Assembly: GCA_021323705.1 (NCBI GenBank)
Contig: JAJPKL010000016.1
Span: 1-44,426 of the forward strand
Length of the DNA stretch: 44,426 nucleotides
Reading direction: 5' to 3'
DNA from: Nitrososphaerota archaeon
GTDB lineage: Archaea; Thermoproteota; Nitrososphaeria; Nitrososphaerales; Nitrosopumilaceae
Part shown: positions 24,614 through 39,593 of the stretch, one piece after another
Position numbering within the stretch: the stretch's first letter is position 1
How the letters are laid out: every line of letters begins with the position of its first letter
Notes under the pieces: generated by a model
Databases searched by the model: none
What the model was told of the DNA's origin: nothing
The model's input: the letters and a program-made list of their open reading frames with translations, nothing else
Position numbers and translations under genes: made by a program

Positions 24614-25198
24614 TCAACTAACACTCTGAGTGTTTAATGTAGTAGGCTCGACATGAAGCGCTGTAGAACAGAACTTGCATTGGTAGGAAAATTTTCGACT
24701 TTGCTCTATTGCATCATCTATGTTTTTTTGCATAGGGAGTAGTTCGGAATATTTTTTATTGCATGCGGAGCAAGTTATCTGAAAATGCGTTATGGAAGAA
24801 TTGGATTGAGAAAAGATTTCTCGCATCTTTGAGATTATTTGGTATATGTTGTATTTGAAATCGCCTCTCTGAAACGTTATATGTTGCTGTTCCTCAATGA
24901 AGCCCTTGATATCGATCCCCTTTTCTACAACTGAAATTACGGGTATGTTTTTGGCAGTGGCATATCCAATTTCTTGGTTTAACCACATTGTATTGGTGCT
25001 GTTGAATGTGATAAGAGCTATTGCAAGATTGGAGCTATTGAGACCATCTTTAATTTTATGTACTAAACTCTTTCCATCCTGTGTTATCCATTCTGGAATG
25101 TAGATGTCGATGTCTTCTAGCCTAGATAAGGTATCATAAAGCTCTTTTACGTTGCTTTCGTCGCCTGTGGCGTAACTTATGAACACTCTGTATTTCAT
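24614..25198 (-). CDS. TIR-domain protein with C-terminal zinc ribbon
   Basis: Protein of 194 residues. The TIR domain (about 1-125) begins YRVFISYATGDESNV and has the catalytic-position glutamate E76 in WLNQEIGYATAKNIPVI, as in TIR NAD-cleaving enzymes. The C-terminal 55 residues form a zinc ribbon (CSACNKKY ... YQCKFCSTALHV). Microbial TIR proteins often degrade NAD, some in anti-phage defence; whether this one is active is inference. It begins 21 bp after a four-CBS gene on the same strand, so it may be part of that transcript; no separate regulon box was found. Confidence 0.85.
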   Translation of the reverse strand: MKYRVFISYATGDESNVKELYDTLSRLEDIDIYIPEWITQDGKSLVHKIKDGLNSSNLAIALITFNSTNTMWLNQEIGYATAKNIPVISVVEKGIDIKGFIEEQQHITFQRGDFKYNIYQIISKMREIFSQSNSSITHFQITCSACNKKYSELLPMQKNIDDAIEQSRKFSYQCKFCSTALHVEPTTLNTQSVS

Positions 25199-29912: not shown

Positions 29913-29948
29913 AACCAAACTTGATAATCAAAAATGGTCTTTTATATG
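29913..29948 (+). promoter_or_regulatory. Regulon-type promoter of small RNA 1
   Basis: AACCA-AACT-TGATA (29913-29926, two mismatches) then TTTATATG as TATA centred near 29944. TATA + 26 and box + 44 both predict transcription start at 29970. Confidence 0.55.
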
Positions 29949-29969
29949 ATGGAGCATATAGGATATTGG

Positions 29970-30078
29970 ACGTAAGCGAACCTAGAAAAACAGGACTTTT
30001 TGGAGTTCTGATCTTTAGGACAACGGATGATCAAAGGATCATCACGATCTGAATCTTGGAACGTTTGCGTCCCTATTT
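29970..30078 (+). ncRNA. Candidate structured small RNA 1 (two-copy family)
   Basis: Non-coding segment co-linear with 33959-34067. From the predicted start, the AAAGG of the conserved core is at offset 63 in both copies and the CCCT before the 3' T-rich end at offset 104 in both. Hairpins: CAGGAC/GTTCTG (29991-30010); GATGATC-AAAG-GATCATC (30026-30043); GAT-CTGA-ATC (30046-30055). GATCTGAATCTTG (30046-30058) is identical in both. The 3' end CCCTATTT could be a terminator. The downstream gene at 30164 has its own TATA (near 30137), so this is not simply its 5' leader. Ends are predictions. Confidence 0.65.
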
Positions 30079-30163
30079 GAAATTCAAAAATTTTCTGTTT
30101 GATATACAAAACATCGTCAATTATGAGGTAAATCATTATAGGCATTCTATTCGTTAAAACCAT

Positions 30164-30568
30164 GTGAGAGTAATTGTATGCGGTCCAATAGGAAACAAAG
30201 GAATAGGCAAAATTAAGAAAATGTCTGATTTCTTGACAAAGAATGGTTTTGAAGTAACAAACCAATTTGTCCTCAATAAAATGGATTATTCTAACATTCG
30301 TGACTTTAGATCTAGAAAAAGACTTGCCAAATCTATTGTCAGACATGATTTGAAACAGGTCAAAAACTCTGATGTACTAGTAGTGCTTGCAACCCCTAGT
30401 TTTGGTTCTGCTATGGAAATGTTTTTTGCAAAGAATCTTGGAAAAAAGACAATCCTCTTCTCTGAAAAACCAATCCCCAGTCCATGGCCAGTCAATTATG
30501 CCGATTTTATATCAAAAAATAAAAACTCCTTGCTCGGTATACTAAAAAAGATTGAAAACAAAAAATAA
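30164..30568 (+). CDS. Nucleoside 2-deoxyribosyltransferase-like protein
   Basis: Protein of 134 residues resembling nucleoside 2-deoxyribosyltransferases, which exchange bases on deoxynucleosides or hydrolyse deoxynucleotides. Seen: N-terminal VIVCGPIGNKG, then SDVLVVLATPSFGSAMEMFFAKNLGKKTILF, where the Glu of GSAMEM fits the family's catalytic glutamate. GTG 30164 is the start; TATTATAGG centres about 27 nt upstream. Substrate unknown; a NAD-related or nucleotide-salvage job would fit the next two genes, which are convergent. Confidence 0.75.
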   Translation: MRVIVCGPIGNKGIGKIKKMSDFLTKNGFEVTNQFVLNKMDYSNIRDFRSRKRLAKSIVRHDLKQVKNSDVLVVLATPSFGSAMEMFFAKNLGKKTILFSEKPIPSPWPVNYADFISKNKNSLLGILKKIENKK

Positions 30569-30576
30569 AAATTATT

Positions 30577-31188
30577 CTAGGCTTTTGTTTTCTCAAGCAA
30601 ATGTATTATCTCAGACATCTTGAGAATTTTGGCCCCATAGTTTTGCTTCATGTAGTCTAATCCAAATTTATGATCCTTTTCCGTAAATGCAGTAACTCCA
30701 TCTTCTGGTACTATGACTTCAAATCCTCTTACAAAGGCATCATAGGCAGTATGCTTTGCACATATGTTTGTGTGGATTCCCACGATGATTAAACAGTCAG
30801 GACCTCTTCCACCGAATTTCTTCTTAAGCAGGCTTTGTAGTTTTGTGTTGTAAAATGCACTATAGGTTCTCTTGGGAACTATGTAATCAAATTTGGATGG
30901 TTTCAGATCATTGATTATCTTGGCACCAGTAGTGCCCTTTAGTGCATGCTGCCCCCACAACTTGAATTCATATGAATCATTTTTTTGATGCGCATCATTG
31001 CAAAAGAAGACGGGTACCTCAATATCTTTTGTAGTCTCAAGCAGTGACTGGATTTTTGGTATTATCTTCTTTGCCCTAACGCACTTTAGTTTTCCATAAA
31101 TAAAATCATTTAACATGTCTACAACTAGAACAGCATAGTGCTTGTTTTCTTCTCTCTTTGTCACCTGCATACCTCCATCTTTTCTCAT
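30577..31188 (-). CDS. Isochorismatase-family hydrolase, probable nicotinamidase
   Basis: Cysteine hydrolase of 203 residues. The catalytic triad is visible: Asp in LVVDMLNDF, Lys in VPKRTYSAF and Cys in GIHTNICAKHTAYDA. It overlaps the nicotinate phosphoribosyltransferase stop by four bases (ATGA), and that partnership strongly favours nicotinamidase (nicotinamide to nicotinate, PncA function) over other family members. The start could also be ATG 31170 (MQVTKREE). Together the two genes form a nicotinamide salvage operon. Confidence 0.86.
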   Translation of the reverse strand: MRKDGGMQVTKREENKHYAVLVVDMLNDFIYGKLKCVRAKKIIPKIQSLLETTKDIEVPVFFCNDAHQKNDSYEFKLWGQHALKGTTGAKIINDLKPSKFDYIVPKRTYSAFYNTKLQSLLKKKFGGRGPDCLIIVGIHTNICAKHTAYDAFVRGFEVIVPEDGVTAFTEKDHKFGLDYMKQNYGAKILKMSEIIHLLEKTKA

Positions 31189-32564
31189 TGCACCTTAAAT
31201 GATCTTGTTATTTCCTCTAGTTTTTCACTGTATCTTACTGGAAAAGTTTCCGGAATGTAATCAATTCTTTTAAACTCGCTTTGTAGTGTGCTCCTTTGTG
31301 TTACGTGAAACTTTCGAATCTCCTTGATGCTTGGAAGTCTTTTTTTCATCCTTCCTTTTTCCATAACTTTTTGCATCAATGGTATACTATCTTCAAAAAC
31401 CTCATCGTCTAAACCAATTATGTCGTGTTTTATTAAACCGGCTTCATAAAACCGAAAGACCTGCTTTGGGCCAGGATGTGTCTTCTTGCCGGGGCTGGTT
31501 TTGAGTTTGTAAATCAATCTGTATTTGTCGTTTCCAATAGGCTCTTTGACCCCCACCAACTTGTACACACCATTCATTGCAGGATCATCTCTTGAAGTAG
31601 CAAGTTCAGTGCCCACTCCAAAGATATCAATAGGCGCACCGCGCTGTACCAAATCATAAATTATGTATTCGTTGAGATCACCGCTTGCCATTATTTTGGT
31701 GTCCTTGTATCCAGCTTTATCTAGAATTTTGCGTGATTTGATACTTAGAAGATAAAGATCACCACTGTCTAATCTTATTCCTTTTGTCCTCAAACCAGAT
31801 TTTACTATCTTTCTTACCGCTTCCAGAGAATCATAGGTATCTACCAAGAGCATTCCTTCTGGAAAAACTTTTGAAAATTCCATAAAAGAATCCATTTCTT
31901 TATCGAAATTCATAACATAGGAATGTGCCATGGTGCCAAAGATTGGGATTCCCATCTTGTGTCCTGCAAGTGTGTTTGACGTACCAACGCAACCACCGAT
32001 ATAGCTTGCCCGCGCTGCAAGAAGAGCTGCTTGTGGACCGTGCGCCCTTCTAAACCCAAATTCAACTACATCCTTGTTTCCTGCAACATTGATTATTCTG
32101 GATGTCTTTGTAGCAATAAGACTTTGAAAATTAACCATTGACAGCAGAAACGTCTCAACAATCTGAGCCTCAATTATTGGGCCCTCTACTCGAAGAAGGG
32201 GCTCATTTGGGAACAATATTGTCCCTTCGGGGACTGCCCAGACATCTCCTGTGAACCTGAAATTCCTAAGATATTCAAAAAAATCATTACCTAGATTCTC
32301 AAAGGATTTGTCAGACTTCAAAAAGGATATGGTGTCTTCATTAAATTCTAGATCATTTAGATAGGATAAGGCCTGCTCAAGCCCAGTTGCCACCATGTAT
32401 GCCCTGTTTTTTGGAAGCTTTCTGACAAACAATTCAAAGATGCCCCTCCTTTCTGTTTGCTTTGAACTAAAGTATGCTGCAGCCATCGTCAGTTCATAAT
32501 AATCAGTTGCTAGTCCAAATTCATCGGGCAATACTATTAGGTTATCGTCTTTTTGGTTTTTCAT
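31185..32564 (-). CDS. pncB: Nicotinate phosphoribosyltransferase
   Basis: NAPRTase of 459 residues that joins nicotinate to PRPP, giving nicotinate mononucleotide for NAD synthesis. Seen: N-terminal ATDYYELTMAAAYF, EFGFRRAHGPQAALLAARAS with the conserved RR/H region, GTMAHSYVMNFD, and KGIRLDSGDLYLLS. Length fits the family. It is first in the operon with nicotinamidase. A box-like TATCA-TCAA-TGAAA and TATATTAAA upstream suggest a start about 42 nt before the ATG, so unlike its neighbours this message would have a short leader. Confidence 0.93.
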   Translation of the reverse strand: MKNQKDDNLIVLPDEFGLATDYYELTMAAAYFSSKQTERRGIFELFVRKLPKNRAYMVATGLEQALSYLNDLEFNEDTISFLKSDKSFENLGNDFFEYLRNFRFTGDVWAVPEGTILFPNEPLLRVEGPIIEAQIVETFLLSMVNFQSLIATKTSRIINVAGNKDVVEFGFRRAHGPQAALLAARASYIGGCVGTSNTLAGHKMGIPIFGTMAHSYVMNFDKEMDSFMEFSKVFPEGMLLVDTYDSLEAVRKIVKSGLRTKGIRLDSGDLYLLSIKSRKILDKAGYKDTKIMASGDLNEYIIYDLVQRGAPIDIFGVGTELATSRDDPAMNGVYKLVGVKEPIGNDKYRLIYKLKTSPGKKTHPGPKQVFRFYEAGLIKHDIIGLDDEVFEDSIPLMQKVMEKGRMKKRLPSIKEIRKFHVTQRSTLQSEFKRIDYIPETFPVRYSEKLEEITRSFKVQ

Positions 32565-32627
32565 ATTTGATGAACATTCCTTTTCATTTTCGTACTTCCT
32601 CTAAGGTAAGGTATGGTATTCTTTAAC

Positions 32628-32663
32628 TATATTAAATTCAAAACCTGAATATCATCAATGAAA
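32628..32663 (-). promoter_or_regulatory. Possible regulon-type promoter of the NAD salvage operon
   Basis: TATCA-TCAA-TGAAA at 32650-32663 (one mismatch) and an AT-rich TATA (TATATTAAA, plus-strand reading) at 32628-32636. Expected transcription start is near 32606, giving a 42-nt leader that contains an eight-codon mini-frame whose stop overlaps ATG 32564. Confidence 0.4.
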
Positions 32664-32733
32664 TATCTTCTCTTACGACCCGGGATTTCCTTTCGACTGG
32701 ACCCCTATTTTCTGAAGATTCAAGGTTCAGATA

Positions 32734-32749
32734 TTATCAAAAATGATAT
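32734..32749 (+). promoter_or_regulatory. TATCA-N4-TGATA box, perfect core (CBS at 32792)
   Basis: TTATCA-AAAA-TGATAT; core 32735-32748 is 43 nt before ATG 32792, with TATTTATC centred about 28 nt before the start. Confidence 0.78.
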
Positions 32750-32791
32750 TCATCATAGACATATTTATCTGAAAACCGGGAGGACAAAGTT

Positions 32792-33655
32792 ATGCGATTT
32801 GAACGCCCTGTCCTCTTAACTTCTATACTTAAAAAAGCAATCACGGTCACTCCAAGGACCAATGTTGTAGATGCCTTGGGCCTGTTATTGAGGTATGGAA
32901 TAAAACGCTTACCAGTTGTTAAGGATTCCAATGTGCCTGTAGGGATAATAACAGAGAAAGACCTGACAAGGGTGACCTCGTCGTTTAATGAGAAGAACAT
33001 TGGAGATATGCGAGTAGGAGATGTAATGTCTGAAAATCTTGTAACGGTAAAGAAAAACAATTCAATTTCTGGTTGTGCAAAGTTAATGAAAACAAACAAC
33101 ATAAGCTCAGTACTGGTACTAAACGAGGATGGTTCGCTAACGGGAATTGTCACCAAAACAGACCTAGTTGGAGCGTTTTTGATTAATGGCATAGCCAATG
33201 AAGAGGTGTCAAAATTCATGACGCGTAAAGTGGTCAGCGTAGATCCTAAAGACTTGCTTTTCGTGGCTCAGAGCGTGCTTGTAAACAACAAGATTTCAAG
33301 AGTAGTGGTAGTAAAAAATAAGAGGCCTGTAGGGATTATCACGTATAGGGATTTTCTTCCTGCAAAGACATCAAACTGGATACAAGAATATGCAGACACC
33401 GATGACCTGTATGAATTAAGAAATGCTCCAAGGATAAATGAATTTAATGCAAACAGCCTTGATCACGTATTGACATTTAGAGCAGAGGATATTATGACAC
33501 CTGCCCCTATAGTAATAAACAAAAATGAGTTCTTATTCAACGCTGCATTGCTAATGATTCGACATCAGATAAGCGGCCTACCTGTAATACATAATAAACT
33601 ATTGGTAGGGATCATCACAAAATCAGATATTGTAAATGCTATGATAGAAACATAG
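32792..33655 (+). CDS. Four-CBS-domain protein
   Basis: Protein of 287 residues with two CBS pairs (AITVTPRTNVVDALGLL, PVGIITEKDLTRVT, LTGIVTKTDLVGAF, PVGIITYRDFL, LVGIITKSDIVNAM). It resembles the 13044 protein, including the longer linker before the fourth repeat. Leaderless by TATA position. No catalytic domain. GGGAGG between TATA and ATG is probably incidental for a leaderless gene. Confidence 0.92.
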   Translation: MRFERPVLLTSILKKAITVTPRTNVVDALGLLLRYGIKRLPVVKDSNVPVGIITEKDLTRVTSSFNEKNIGDMRVGDVMSENLVTVKKNNSISGCAKLMKTNNISSVLVLNEDGSLTGIVTKTDLVGAFLINGIANEEVSKFMTRKVVSVDPKDLLFVAQSVLVNNKISRVVVVKNKRPVGIITYRDFLPAKTSNWIQEYADTDDLYELRNAPRINEFNANSLDHVLTFRAEDIMTPAPIVINKNEFLFNAALLMIRHQISGLPVIHNKLLVGIITKSDIVNAMIET

Positions 33656-33754
33656 TAAGAGTAGCTACTTTATTGGTTACTTTACAAAACATAATTTTTC
33701 AATTTTAAGACAATACTTATGAAGAATGCAAAGAATTAGTGAACTAGAGATTGC

Positions 33755-33874
33755 ATGACTATAAAATGCCAATGCACAGAATGTATATGTAACTCACAAC
33801 TCTACAAAGTAGACAAGGATGGAAAGTATCTCTGCTCTAGTTGCAGACTAGGAAAACACAATCACACAGACTGA
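33755..33874 (+). CDS. Metallothionein-like mini-protein, 39 residues
   Basis: Thirty-nine residues with seven Cys and two His: CQCTECICNSQLY, then GKYLCSSCRLGKHNH. The spacing C-x-C-x2-C-x-C followed by Y-x-C-x2-C-x3-GxHxH matches the first half of bacterial SmtA/BmtA metallothioneins, which bind zinc, copper or cadmium. The second cysteine cluster of SmtA is missing, so only a small metal cluster could form. No convincing TATA box stands 26 nt before the ATG, so a short leader is likely. Too short for most gene finders. Confidence 0.7.
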   Translation: MTIKCQCTECICNSQLYKVDKDGKYLCSSCRLGKHNHTD

Positions 33875-33900
33875 TTTTAAAATCATCCTCGAATAAGATG

Positions 33901-33916
33901 TTATCAATTTTGATAA
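33901..33916 (+). promoter_or_regulatory. TATCA-N4-TGATA box, perfect palindrome (small RNA 2)
   Basis: TTATCAA-TT-TTGATAA, same core as the Hsp20 copy at 16613. TTTTTATTAATTG centred near 33932 is the TATA; box + 44 gives a start at 33959. Confidence 0.75.
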
Positions 33917-33958
33917 TCGTGATCATTTTTTTATTAATTGACTCCGTATAGTATCGGG

Positions 33959-34067
33959 TAATAACCAAACAAGAAAAAACACAAATCCAAAAGATCTGTG
34001 TTTCTAAGATAACTGGTGACCAAAGGATCACAAAGATCTGAATCTTGCACGGTTGTTGCCCCTTTTT
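33959..34067 (+). ncRNA. Candidate structured small RNA 2 (two-copy family)
   Basis: Partner of 29970-30078. Hairpins: AAACACA/TGTGTTT (33977-34003), at the same offset as the unrelated-sequence hairpin of copy 1; GTGACC-AAAG-GATCAC (34016-34031, one C-A mismatch); AAGAT-CTGA-ATCTT (34033-34046). The 3' end GCCCCTTTTT looks like a terminator and touches the next promoter box at 34065. The UspA gene at 34121 has its own box and TATA (34091-34099), so this RNA is probably a separate transcript. A spurious frame through it (from 34016) is not expected to be coding. Confidence 0.68.
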
Positions 34068-34120: not shown

Positions 34121-34552
34121 ATGCTACAAAATAGATTCAAAAAAATCCTCGTTCCACTTGATGGTTCCCTGAACTCTATAAGAGGATTAAATGAGGCCAT
34201 ATCACTTGCTAGACAAAGTGATGCAACGATAACCGGTATTCACATAATGCCAAATTTTTCACCTAAAGTAGCAAAGATTCTAAAATCATATAGAGCGGGG
34301 TTGCTAAAAAACGCACAAAAAATTATGTCCCACGCACAAACTAGTACTGCAAGGCATGGTATTTCCTTTAATGAAAAAATTGCCGTATCAGGAGATGTTG
34401 TAAAAACAATAGCATCTTATGCAAAATCAAGTAAATCCGACATCATAGTCATAGGTTCTAGAGGCGAAGGTTCTCCCCATGCGGAATATCTGGGAAGCGT
34501 CGCAAACGGCGTACTTCACGAATCCAAAGTGCCAGTCCTCGTTGTAAAGTAA
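34121..34552 (+). CDS. Universal stress protein (UspA family)
   Basis: UspA protein of 143 residues: KKILVPLDGSLNSIRGL at the start, ATP loop GSRGEGSPHAEYLGSVANGV, VPVLVVK end. The loop has SPHA where most have GFKK, a small change in the ATP region. The frame extends upstream to 34016 through small RNA 2, but ATG 34121 is right: ATAATATAT is 26 nt and the regulon box 42 nt before it. Confidence 0.92.
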   Translation: MLQNRFKKILVPLDGSLNSIRGLNEAISLARQSDATITGIHIMPNFSPKVAKILKSYRAGLLKNAQKIMSHAQTSTARHGISFNEKIAVSGDVVKTIASYAKSSKSDIIVIGSRGEGSPHAEYLGSVANGVLHESKVPVLVVK

Positions 34553-36653: not shown

Positions 36654-39593
36654 ATGACTCAGAAAATCTTTGGAATAAAAAACGATTTAGGGCTGAGCAC
36701 AAATGCAATCAAGGTTCTACAGAGGCGTTACCTACTCCAAAATGAAAAAGGAGAAATTCTTGAAACACCATCACAATTATTTCGAAGAGTCGCACGAACT
36801 GTTGCTTCTGTAGAAACAAAATATGGACAAAAGGAGGATGTGAAGAAGACAGAGGATGAATTTTACAAAGTGATGTCAAGATTGGAATTTTTGCCAAATA
36901 CGCCAACTCTGATGAACGCTGGTACAAAGGTAGGACAGCTGTCTGCATGTTTTGTCATACCAGTTGGAGATTCATTACCCGAAATCTTTGATGCGGTAAA
37001 ATGGACTGCTATAATTCATCAAAGTGGAGGCGGAACAGGTTTCAATTTCAGCCACCTCAGACCGCAGGGAGATTCCGTAAAATCAACAGGTGGTATAGCT
37101 TCTGGCCCTGTTAGATTTATGACAATATTTGACAAGACAACAGAGGTAATAAAACAGGGAGGCAAACGACGTGGGGCTAACATGGGGATTCTACGGGTAG
37201 ATCATCCTGACATAATGGAATTCATTGTATGCAAGTCAAAAGAAGGGTTTCTTTCAAACTTTAACATTTCAGTTGCAATAACTGATGCGTTCATGGATGC
37301 AGTAAAAAGAAACAGCGAATATTCCCTCATTAATCCTAGAACCAACCAAATTGTAGGCAAATTAAATGCAAGAAAAGTTTTTGATCTTATAATAACAAAC
37401 GCATGGAAAAATGGAGACCCAGGAATCATTTTCATAGAACGGATAAACAAGTCAAATCCCACGCCCAGTCTTGGAGAAATAGAGGCAACTAATCCATGCG
37501 TGACAGGAGACACATTGGTATCTACAAACCAAGGATTAGTACAGATAAAAGATATTGCGGAAAATTATTCTGAGGTAGTAGTGGCTACGAACATACAAAG
37601 TGGGAACCAGCAACTACTTTCCTTCAAACATGCAAGGGCATTTAAGACAGGAAGAAAAGAAGCATTCAAGATCGAAACAGAATCTGGGTATGAAGTTACC
37701 GCAACGGCTGATCACAAATTCCTCACGAAAAACGGTTGGAAAGAATTGAAGGATCTGACAGTTTTCGACGAACTAATTTTGCAAAACTCTGAGGGAAAAT
37801 TCTCGAACAATTCAAAGTTGCCATTTGAATTTAATAACAAGAGGGATTGGGACATCGAGTTGGGAAGAGTCATTGGGTGGCTTATAGGTGATGTGTGGCT
37901 TGTGGACGGAAAAAACTTGAGAGTTGGTTTTACTTTTGGCAATGATGACAAACAAGTCTTCAGTTATCTTAAACCGACAATCAATAAATTATACGGCTCT
38001 GAAATAAAAGAAGTCGAAAGATCTGGAACCGTCGTTCACCTATCGTATCATTCGAAAAAGTTTATCGAGTTTTTCAAAAATCTGGGTGTTCTGGCTTGGA
38101 CCTCTGAAACGAAAGAAGTTCCGTCCTCGATTTTCACCGCAACTAGGGAGGGTGTTATTGGATTCCTACAGGGACTTTTCAGCTCCGATGGCACTGTTGG
38201 CTATGACAAAGAAAAGGGAAATTATTACATCAGACTCAGCTCCAAATCTAAGAAGCTTCTGAAACAAGTCCAGCTCCTCCTCCTAAACCTTGGAATAAAA
38301 TCCAAGATTTACGAAAGACATAGAGAAAGAAGGGTAACCTTCAGCTACAGGAACATCAAAGGGGAGCTGAATCTTTACGAAGACGATGGGTTACTCTGGG
38401 AGCTTCACATAAGCAAAGACATGATTCCGGTATTCCTTCAAAAGATCGGATTTCTCTGCAACAAAAATGAGGAAAAATTAAAAAAAATCAGAAACGTAAA
38501 CTTCCATAGGACAAGTTTCACAGACAGGGTTTTCTCTAAGGAATCCATAGGAACTGTGGACGTCTTCGACTTGACAGAGTCTGAGACTCATTCCTTCATT
38601 GCTAATGGGATAGTTGTACATAATTGTGGAGAACAACCATTACTTTCATGGGAATCATGTAATCTAGGCTCTATCAACCTATCAAAAGTAGTGAAAAATG
38701 GAAAGATAAACTGGAAAAAACTTGGACAATTAGTTAGCCTAGGAGTTAGATTTTTGGATAATGTAATTGATGTAAACAAATACCCAGCGCCACAGATAGA
38801 AAGGATTACACTAGCAAATAGGAAGATTGGAATCGGTGTTATGGGTTTTGCTGACGCCTTGATACAGATGAACATACCATACAATTCAAAAAAAGCACTT
38901 GAGCTGGGAGAAAAAATAATGAAATTTATCCAATCCGAAGGTCGTAATACTTCTCAAAAACTAGGAAAGGAACGAGGTAATTTCCCCAATTTTGACCAAA
39001 GCGTTTGGAGAAAAAAGTTCCGTACTCTACGTAATGCAACTGTAACAACCGTCGCACCAACGGGAACCATTTCGATTATAGCTGGCTGTTCTTCAGGAAT
39101 TGAACCTATTTTTGCTGTATCATATGTAAGAAACGTGATGGAAGGAACAAGACTACAAGAAACCAACCCGTATTTTGAAAAGATTGCAAAGAAAAGAGGC
39201 TTTTATTCATCTGAACTGTTACATGAAATCTTGAAGAATGGTTCAGTACAATGCATCAAGAAAATTCCAAAAAATATCAAAAAAGTATTCGTTACATCTT
39301 TGGACATTAAACCAGACTTTCATATAAGAATGCAGGCTGCATTTCAAAAATATACCGATAATGCGGTAAGCAAGACAGTCAATTTACCACAAACTGCTAC
39401 TCCAGATGATGTAAGAAATGCCTACCTGCTTGCATATAGGCTGAAATCAAAAGGTGTAACTGTTTATAGATACAACAGCAAACCAGACCAAGTTTTAACA
39501 ATTGAAATTCCAGACAAGTTATCAAATAAAAGCCAGGTTGTGGCCGATTCTGAATTTGGTGGTGGATGCGAGGGAATTGTCTGCCCACACTAG
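36654..39593 (+). CDS. nrdJ: Adenosylcobalamin-dependent ribonucleotide reductase (class II) with intein
   Basis: Reduces ribonucleotides to deoxyribonucleotides. Of 979 encoded residues, 376 are an intein (282-657) and the spliced enzyme has about 603. Extein motifs: LPNTPTLMNAG, SACFVIPVGDS, HQSGGGTGFNFS, RRGANMGIL, the NPCGEQPL active site (its Cys at 38625-38627 is the thiyl-radical cysteine by homology), and APTGTISIIAGCSSGIEP. The C-terminus GGGCEGIVCPH carries the redox-active cysteine pair. It needs B12, which many thaumarchaea make. The intein separates the active site, so the precursor cannot be active before splicing. The 75-residue gene is 15 bp upstream. Confidence 0.94.
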   Translation: MTQKIFGIKNDLGLSTNAIKVLQRRYLLQNEKGEILETPSQLFRRVARTVASVETKYGQKEDVKKTEDEFYKVMSRLEFLPNTPTLMNAGTKVGQLSACFVIPVGDSLPEIFDAVKWTAIIHQSGGGTGFNFSHLRPQGDSVKSTGGIASGPVRFMTIFDKTTEVIKQGGKRRGANMGILRVDHPDIMEFIVCKSKEGFLSNFNISVAITDAFMDAVKRNSEYSLINPRTNQIVGKLNARKVFDLIITNAWKNGDPGIIFIERINKSNPTPSLGEIEATNPCVTGDTLVSTNQGLVQIKDIAENYSEVVVATNIQSGNQQLLSFKHARAFKTGRKEAFKIETESGYEVTATADHKFLTKNGWKELKDLTVFDELILQNSEGKFSNNSKLPFEFNNKRDWDIELGRVIGWLIGDVWLVDGKNLRVGFTFGNDDKQVFSYLKPTINKLYGSEIKEVERSGTVVHLSYHSKKFIEFFKNLGVLAWTSETKEVPSSIFTATREGVIGFLQGLFSSDGTVGYDKEKGNYYIRLSSKSKKLLKQVQLLLLNLGIKSKIYERHRERRVTFSYRNIKGELNLYEDDGLLWELHISKDMIPVFLQKIGFLCNKNEEKLKKIRNVNFHRTSFTDRVFSKESIGTVDVFDLTESETHSFIANGIVVHNCGEQPLLSWESCNLGSINLSKVVKNGKINWKKLGQLVSLGVRFLDNVIDVNKYPAPQIERITLANRKIGIGVMGFADALIQMNIPYNSKKALELGEKIMKFIQSEGRNTSQKLGKERGNFPNFDQSVWRKKFRTLRNATVTTVAPTGTISIIAGCSSGIEPIFAVSYVRNVMEGTRLQETNPYFEKIAKKRGFYSSELLHEILKNGSVQCIKKIPKNIKKVFVTSLDIKPDFHIRMQAAFQKYTDNAVSKTVNLPQTATPDDVRNAYLLAYRLKSKGVTVYRYNSKPDQVLTIEIPDKLSNKSQVVADSEFGGGCEGIVCPH
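37497..38624 (+). mobile_element. Intein with LAGLIDADG homing endonuclease, in nrdJ
   Basis: In-frame insertion of 376 residues. Splicing motifs: Cys1 in CVTGDTLV (block A), TATADHKFLT (block B), VDVFDLTESETHSFIANG (block F) and terminal VVHN with Cys+1 (block G). Between lie two LAGLIDADG-type segments, RVIGWLIGDVWLVDG and FLQGLFSSDG, both keeping the acidic residue; the first has GDVW instead of the commoner GDG. All splicing residues are present, so it should be active. Codon use is visibly more C-rich than the flanking extein, consistent with recent entry. Confidence 0.92.

Follow-up and report, generated by a model that had tools for sequence, protein, structure and literature searches.

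The window, a stretch of 44,426 nucleotides from a Nitrososphaerota archaeon (contig JAJPKL010000016.1), holds two short intergenic segments that fold alike. Copy 1 spans 29968-30072 (105 nt) and copy 2 33956-34061 (106 nt), both on the + strand, as are all RNA elements and boxes given below; a UspA gene (34121-34552, +) lies downstream of copy 2. An earlier note had singled out both segments, and they do exist, but the RNAs most likely start 2-3 nt before the starts claimed there, namely at 29968 and 33956. Counted from those earlier starts, the motif AAAGG begins after 63 nt in both copies (positions 30033 and 34022), precisely as proposed, whereas CCCT follows at 101 nt and not at 104 nt. 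A check of the sequence also bears out that GATCTGAATCTTG is the same in both copies, that the 5' hairpins (CAGGAC/GTTCTG in copy 1, AAACACA/TGTGTTT in copy 2) occupy equivalent positions with different letters, and that the second hairpins differ by one A-T to G-C change. Each RNA indeed has these two hairpins, but an 11-bp stem closing the entire molecule in both copies had been overlooked.

This closing stem, P1, pairs GGACGTAAGCG (29968-29978) with CGTTTGCGTCC (30062-30072) in copy 1 and GGGTAATAACC (33956-33966) with GGTTGTTGCCC (34051-34061) in copy 2, as assigned from sequence and covariation. P2 has the general form NNAAGA/TCTTGNN and consists of CCTAGA (29981-29986) and TCTTGG (30054-30059) with one U-U mismatch in copy 1, and of CAAGA (33970-33974) and TCTTG (34043-34047) in copy 2. 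The variable hairpin P3 covers 29991-30010 in copy 1, where all 5 modelled pairs show two-sided change, and 33977-34003 in copy 2. P4, with its conserved apical loop, is formed by GATGATC-AAAG-GATCATC (30026-30043) in copy 1 and by GTGA-CCAAAGGA-TCAC (34016-34031) in copy 2; both P4 hairpins and the P3 of copy 2 are placed by fold and covariation. P5 is a short stem (RGA/TCY), and a two-pair helix (CG/CG or CT/AG) lies beneath the P4 hairpin. In our model P1 to P5 together form a three-way junction, in which P1 and P2 would lie in line, next to the variable P3 and a conserved P5-P4 arm carrying the CCAAAGGA loop. The letters of the stems vary freely, with little change in the P4 loop, the NAA side of an internal loop and the GATCTGA strand. 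Conserved loops on freely varying stems are typical of a binding site for protein, RNA or a small molecule.

Both copies fold better than expected by chance, with z-scores of -4.33 (copy 1) and -4.99 (copy 2) and none of 200 dinucleotide-preserving shuffles folding equally well. Among the other aligned copies the z-score is mostly between -3 and -6; one copy, L033, when folded by itself does no better than chance (-0.86). In an alignment of 15 copies (the decayed L028 was excluded), 22 of the 30 pairs show two-sided compensatory change and 94.6% of the cells are paired, against 33-37% when the 3' partners are slid; none of 500 shuffles reaches the observed covariation. An alignment of all copies with MAFFT misplaced the 5' strand of P1, for which reason the covariance model R1 was made from two clean copies and the remaining copies were aligned to it. 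Because the resulting alignment is fitted to the model, the structure was checked in two further ways. Plain MAFFT alignments per subfamily, which are not model-fitted, recover P1, P4 and one P3 hairpin, show P5 in subfamily A and recover P2 only partly. Sister comparisons (7, disjoint) yield 14 compensatory changes across P1-P5 against 0-2 with slid pairings; they were picked from the copies' own tree and are not all strict sisters, L017/L034 being a leftover pair. Over the whole structure G-U cells outnumber A-C cells by 50 to 8, which identifies the + strand as the RNA. The homologues therefore share a secondary structure that is supported by covariation, as expected for a structured RNA family.

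A 26-nt core pattern matches the 1.84-Mb source genome exactly twice, at copies 1 and 2 (control matches: 0). Among 151 genomes of the family, a search with a core pattern brought up 5 homologues that were convincing. R1, built from two of these five, found both window copies (77.8 bits for copy 2, 65.2 bits for copy 1) and retrieved 15 copies at E < 0.001 from 300 related genomes. A second model, R2, built from these 15, scores copy 1 at 90.2 bits (E 3e-19) and copy 2 at 101.2 bits (E 4e-22) and added one copy, L035 in G128, which carries the same promoter-like boxes. This brings the total to 16 copies in 13 genomes, one copy being a decayed remnant. The earlier note had proposed an undescribed RNA family and the building of a covariance model to search thaumarchaeal genomes; the search returned homologues with compensatory change in all stems, not homologues lacking covariation, and the family has no counterpart in Rfam 15. 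At the RNA no Rfam 15 family reaches its gathering threshold (the only match in the window is a tRNA elsewhere), nor does any match the RNA even at E values up to 5, the listed matches lying elsewhere in the loci. We found no paper on noncoding RNAs of Nitrosotalea in a literature search.

The carriers comprise 10 of 37 Ca. Nitrosotalea genomes, two genomes of genus g17 and one of genus g21. No further copies emerged when R2 was run on 250 genomes from the family and on 250 from the class. When 84,980 named species genomes were scanned with a pattern, eight contigs matched, all from thaumarchaeal MAGs and apparently from carriers already counted; a pattern scan of IMG/VR gave no match. As found so far, the family is thus limited to Ca. 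Nitrosotalea and the two neighbouring genera, acid-soil archaea of the ammonia-oxidiser type, and has a patchy distribution even there, so that it does not count as an RNA of thaumarchaea in general. Several weaker candidates were discarded. L029, L030 and L031, from other families of the order (R1 E about 0.05), did not turn up when R2 was run on the family and the class; L029 and L031 have no matching fold or promoter, and L030 is merely a 33-nt piece. For the pattern matches L003-L008 and L014-L016 the rest of the RNA is absent by inspection and R1 gives no full-length match.

The tree of the copies separates subfamily A (copy 1 type) from subfamily B (copy 2 type) with a support of 0.994. 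Carrier genomes hold one or two copies, and the source genome has one of each subfamily. At least 10 different genomic settings are seen and only two recur (one shared by copy 1 and G123, the other by copy 2, G160 and G157). L025, L028 and L034 look decayed, L025 and L034 being without parts of the RNA. The 5' half of a decayed copy in G157 (L048:6037-6142) overlaps the end of a CBS-domain gene. In G123 (L063) the RNA is missing at the copy 2 site upstream of UspA, with the T-run and the UspA promoter kept, so that the site appears empty. Given the many settings, the remnants and this empty site, the RNA seems to have been often gained, moved and lost, like a dispensable regulatory gene; its absence from 27 of the 37 Ca. 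Nitrosotalea genomes likewise indicates that it can be dispensed with.

Upstream of the RNA, promoter-like boxes are conserved at fixed distances (counted from the first base of P1). The upstream box TGATAATC lies at 29922-29929 in copy 1, with GATAATC 45 nt before the first RNA base, and at 33911-33918 in copy 2; a TATA-like box lies at 29940-29947 (TTTTATAT) and 33928-33935, respectively. Across the 16 copies, a GATAATC-type box (GATAATC, GAAAATC or GGTAATC) is present at -44 to -46 in 11 and a TATA-like box of the TTT(A/T) type starts at -28 to -31 in 13. In subfamily B an inverted TTATCA is often seen by eye about 12 nt above the GATAATC-type box. The order GATAATC, then a TTTWTA box, occurs only 4 times in the whole genome, 2 of them at copies 1 and 2; another such site precedes PII-like genes (named from their translation). 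On both strands of the window TGATAATC is found 12 times where 2.2 are expected, several times ahead of genes for Usp, CBS and other proteins, and it looks like a candidate site for a regulator. Before the Usp genes of relatives (L060, L061, L062, L071) it is often part of a palindrome-like TGATTATCA. On the 3' side most copies have a T-rich stretch after P1 (in copy 2 a terminator-like T-run at 34063-34067).

The genes downstream of the copies are of varied kinds and include nucleoside-deoxyribosyltransferase-like (NDT-like), UspA, Hsp20, PII, TFB, CBS and cupredoxin genes. A separate GATAAT + TATA promoter lies between the RNA and the start codon of UspA (both at copy 2 and at its orthologues in G160 and G157) and of PII. 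For the UspA gene of the window this promoter (GATAAT/TATAATAT) agrees with what had been proposed for the gene downstream of copy 2, places the gene outside the RNA's transcription unit and fits a near-leaderless mRNA. Downstream of the copy in G142 the sole gene is convergent, 54 nt away, and none lies on the same strand. The RNA is thus independent of any single downstream gene. Around the RNAs (within 4.5 kb), 10 of 142 genes encode Usp and 16 of 142 encode CBS-cluster proteins (raw counts). Usp numbers vary widely in the genus, from about 1 to 29 first-look candidates per genome, with most carriers at the high end. Crude candidate counts are higher in carriers within the genus (Mann-Whitney p = 0.035), the genomes being non-independent and some of them incomplete.

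Given the varied downstream genes, the separate promoters of UspA and PII and the G142 copy without a same-strand gene, the RNA is most likely free-standing. We consider it rather likely that each segment is the gene for a structured small RNA of about 105 nt that acts in trans and is co-expressed with stress genes, a reading drawn from comparison of sequences. Transcription would start at the first G of P1, directed by the TATA-like box and the upstream GATAATC box (the latter probably an activator site), and would stop at the T-run directly past P1. The RNA may then act in trans in a stress response, together with UspA, CBS-domain genes and others like them, and the likeliest mode would be for the internal loops and apical loop of the conserved P5-P4 arm to bind a partner, either protein or RNA. 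More tentatively, it might be argued that these RNAs form a new class of archaeal regulatory RNA acting in trans, whose two paralogous subfamilies are older than the sampled Nitrosotalea species, and that they possibly provide the RNA component of a universal-stress/CBS-domain regulon under a TGATAATC-binding activator and bind a putative protein or ligand. Two further ideas were dropped: mimicry of the 16S rRNA 3' end (GGATCACC) is ruled out by stem letters that change freely, and a kissing pair between the P3 and P4 loops is unsupported, the loops being complementary in some copies and not in others.

A related, somewhat doubtful proposal is that the free-standing RNA acts by base-pairing with mRNAs rather than by binding a protein. 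Its architecture would suit such an antisense role, as would the exposed, A-rich and conserved P4 loop, but complements of this loop, the sole conserved one, show no enrichment at gene starts (1 of 30), and most of the conserved residues belong to internal loops, a trait of RNAs that bind proteins or ligands. On account of the missing enrichment we favour, with low confidence, protein binding over antisense pairing. It is rather unlikely that the RNA is instead a cis-acting leader (riboswitch or attenuator), the 5' part of an mRNA in which a ligand or protein chooses between a stop at the T-run and read-through. For 14 of the 16 copies the next called ORF shares the strand of the RNA, usually at a distance of 25-150 nt (several of these ORFs are doubtful), as a leader would also predict, and this bias keeps the explanation alive; moreover, the compact fold with conserved loops resembles a receptor and the downstream genes are partly stress genes. 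The bias, however, comes from a small number of independent loci (7 of 9 with Pfam support, by our own count), and a leader would not explain the promoters between the RNA and UspA (copy 2, G160, G157) or PII, the G142 copy, or the UspA locus of G123 that retains its promoter without the RNA. Neither do the downstream genes share a pathway, as would be expected of a riboswitch, which should always stand before genes of one pathway with no intervening promoter. A free-standing RNA fits better because unrelated genes follow the same RNA and several of them can be transcribed without it.

The spread over at least 10 settings, the patchy presence, the decayed copy and the empty site could also recall a dispersed, MITE-like repeat, with P1 as terminal inverted repeats spread by transposition and no function as RNA. 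We regard this as highly improbable: the ends of P1 vary among copies yet remain paired, the inner stems covary too, and the wobble pairs are G-U on one strand, a strand asymmetry that such an element would not be expected to show. Furthermore, the promoter-like boxes stay at a fixed distance and genomes contain merely one or two copies. By inspection the two window copies have no target-site duplication, and a casual look noticed no adjoining transposase.

Compared with known systems, the free-standing RNA proposed here resembles archaeal intergenic small RNAs in being short, in having a TATA-type promoter of its own and in ending at a T-run, with transcription presumed; it differs from them in general by a defined, covarying three-way-junction fold in three genera without an Rfam match. 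With TPP and other three-way-junction riboswitches it shares a closing stem and two arms at the junction, but it matches no Rfam riboswitch model and its copies do not stand upstream of one-pathway genes. By inspection, guide RNAs can be set aside: the CUGA of a C/D box RNA gives way to CCGA in L021 and L026 and to CUUA in L027, with no conserved box C (RUGAUGA), and the 3' end is a T-run without the ACA of an H/ACA RNA. To our knowledge, few regulatory RNAs are known in archaea of the ammonia-oxidiser type, a dominant group in acid soils. The covariation-backed family and its model, the promoter signature and the species list make a direct search of soil metatranscriptomes possible and also enable a targeted test of RNA regulation in the phylum of these archaea. 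Comparative genomics has previously yielded 104 candidate structured RNA motifs, several of which seem to act in trans (PMC2864571); like these, the present family has covariation evidence and no known function. The main text of that study names no motif from Nitrosopumilus, Cenarchaeum or crenarchaea.

Elsewhere in the window, the CBS/Usp-rich region contains a protein with a TIR-like domain (24614-25198, -; start MKYRVFISYATGDESNVKELYDTL; judged by eye), which is conserved in L044 and L046. A class II ribonucleotide reductase-like ORF of 979 aa (36654-39593, +) contains an apparent intein (CVTGDTLVSTNQGL ... SETHSFIANGIVVHNC, judged from the translation); in L044 the ORF call for the relative has 604 aa.
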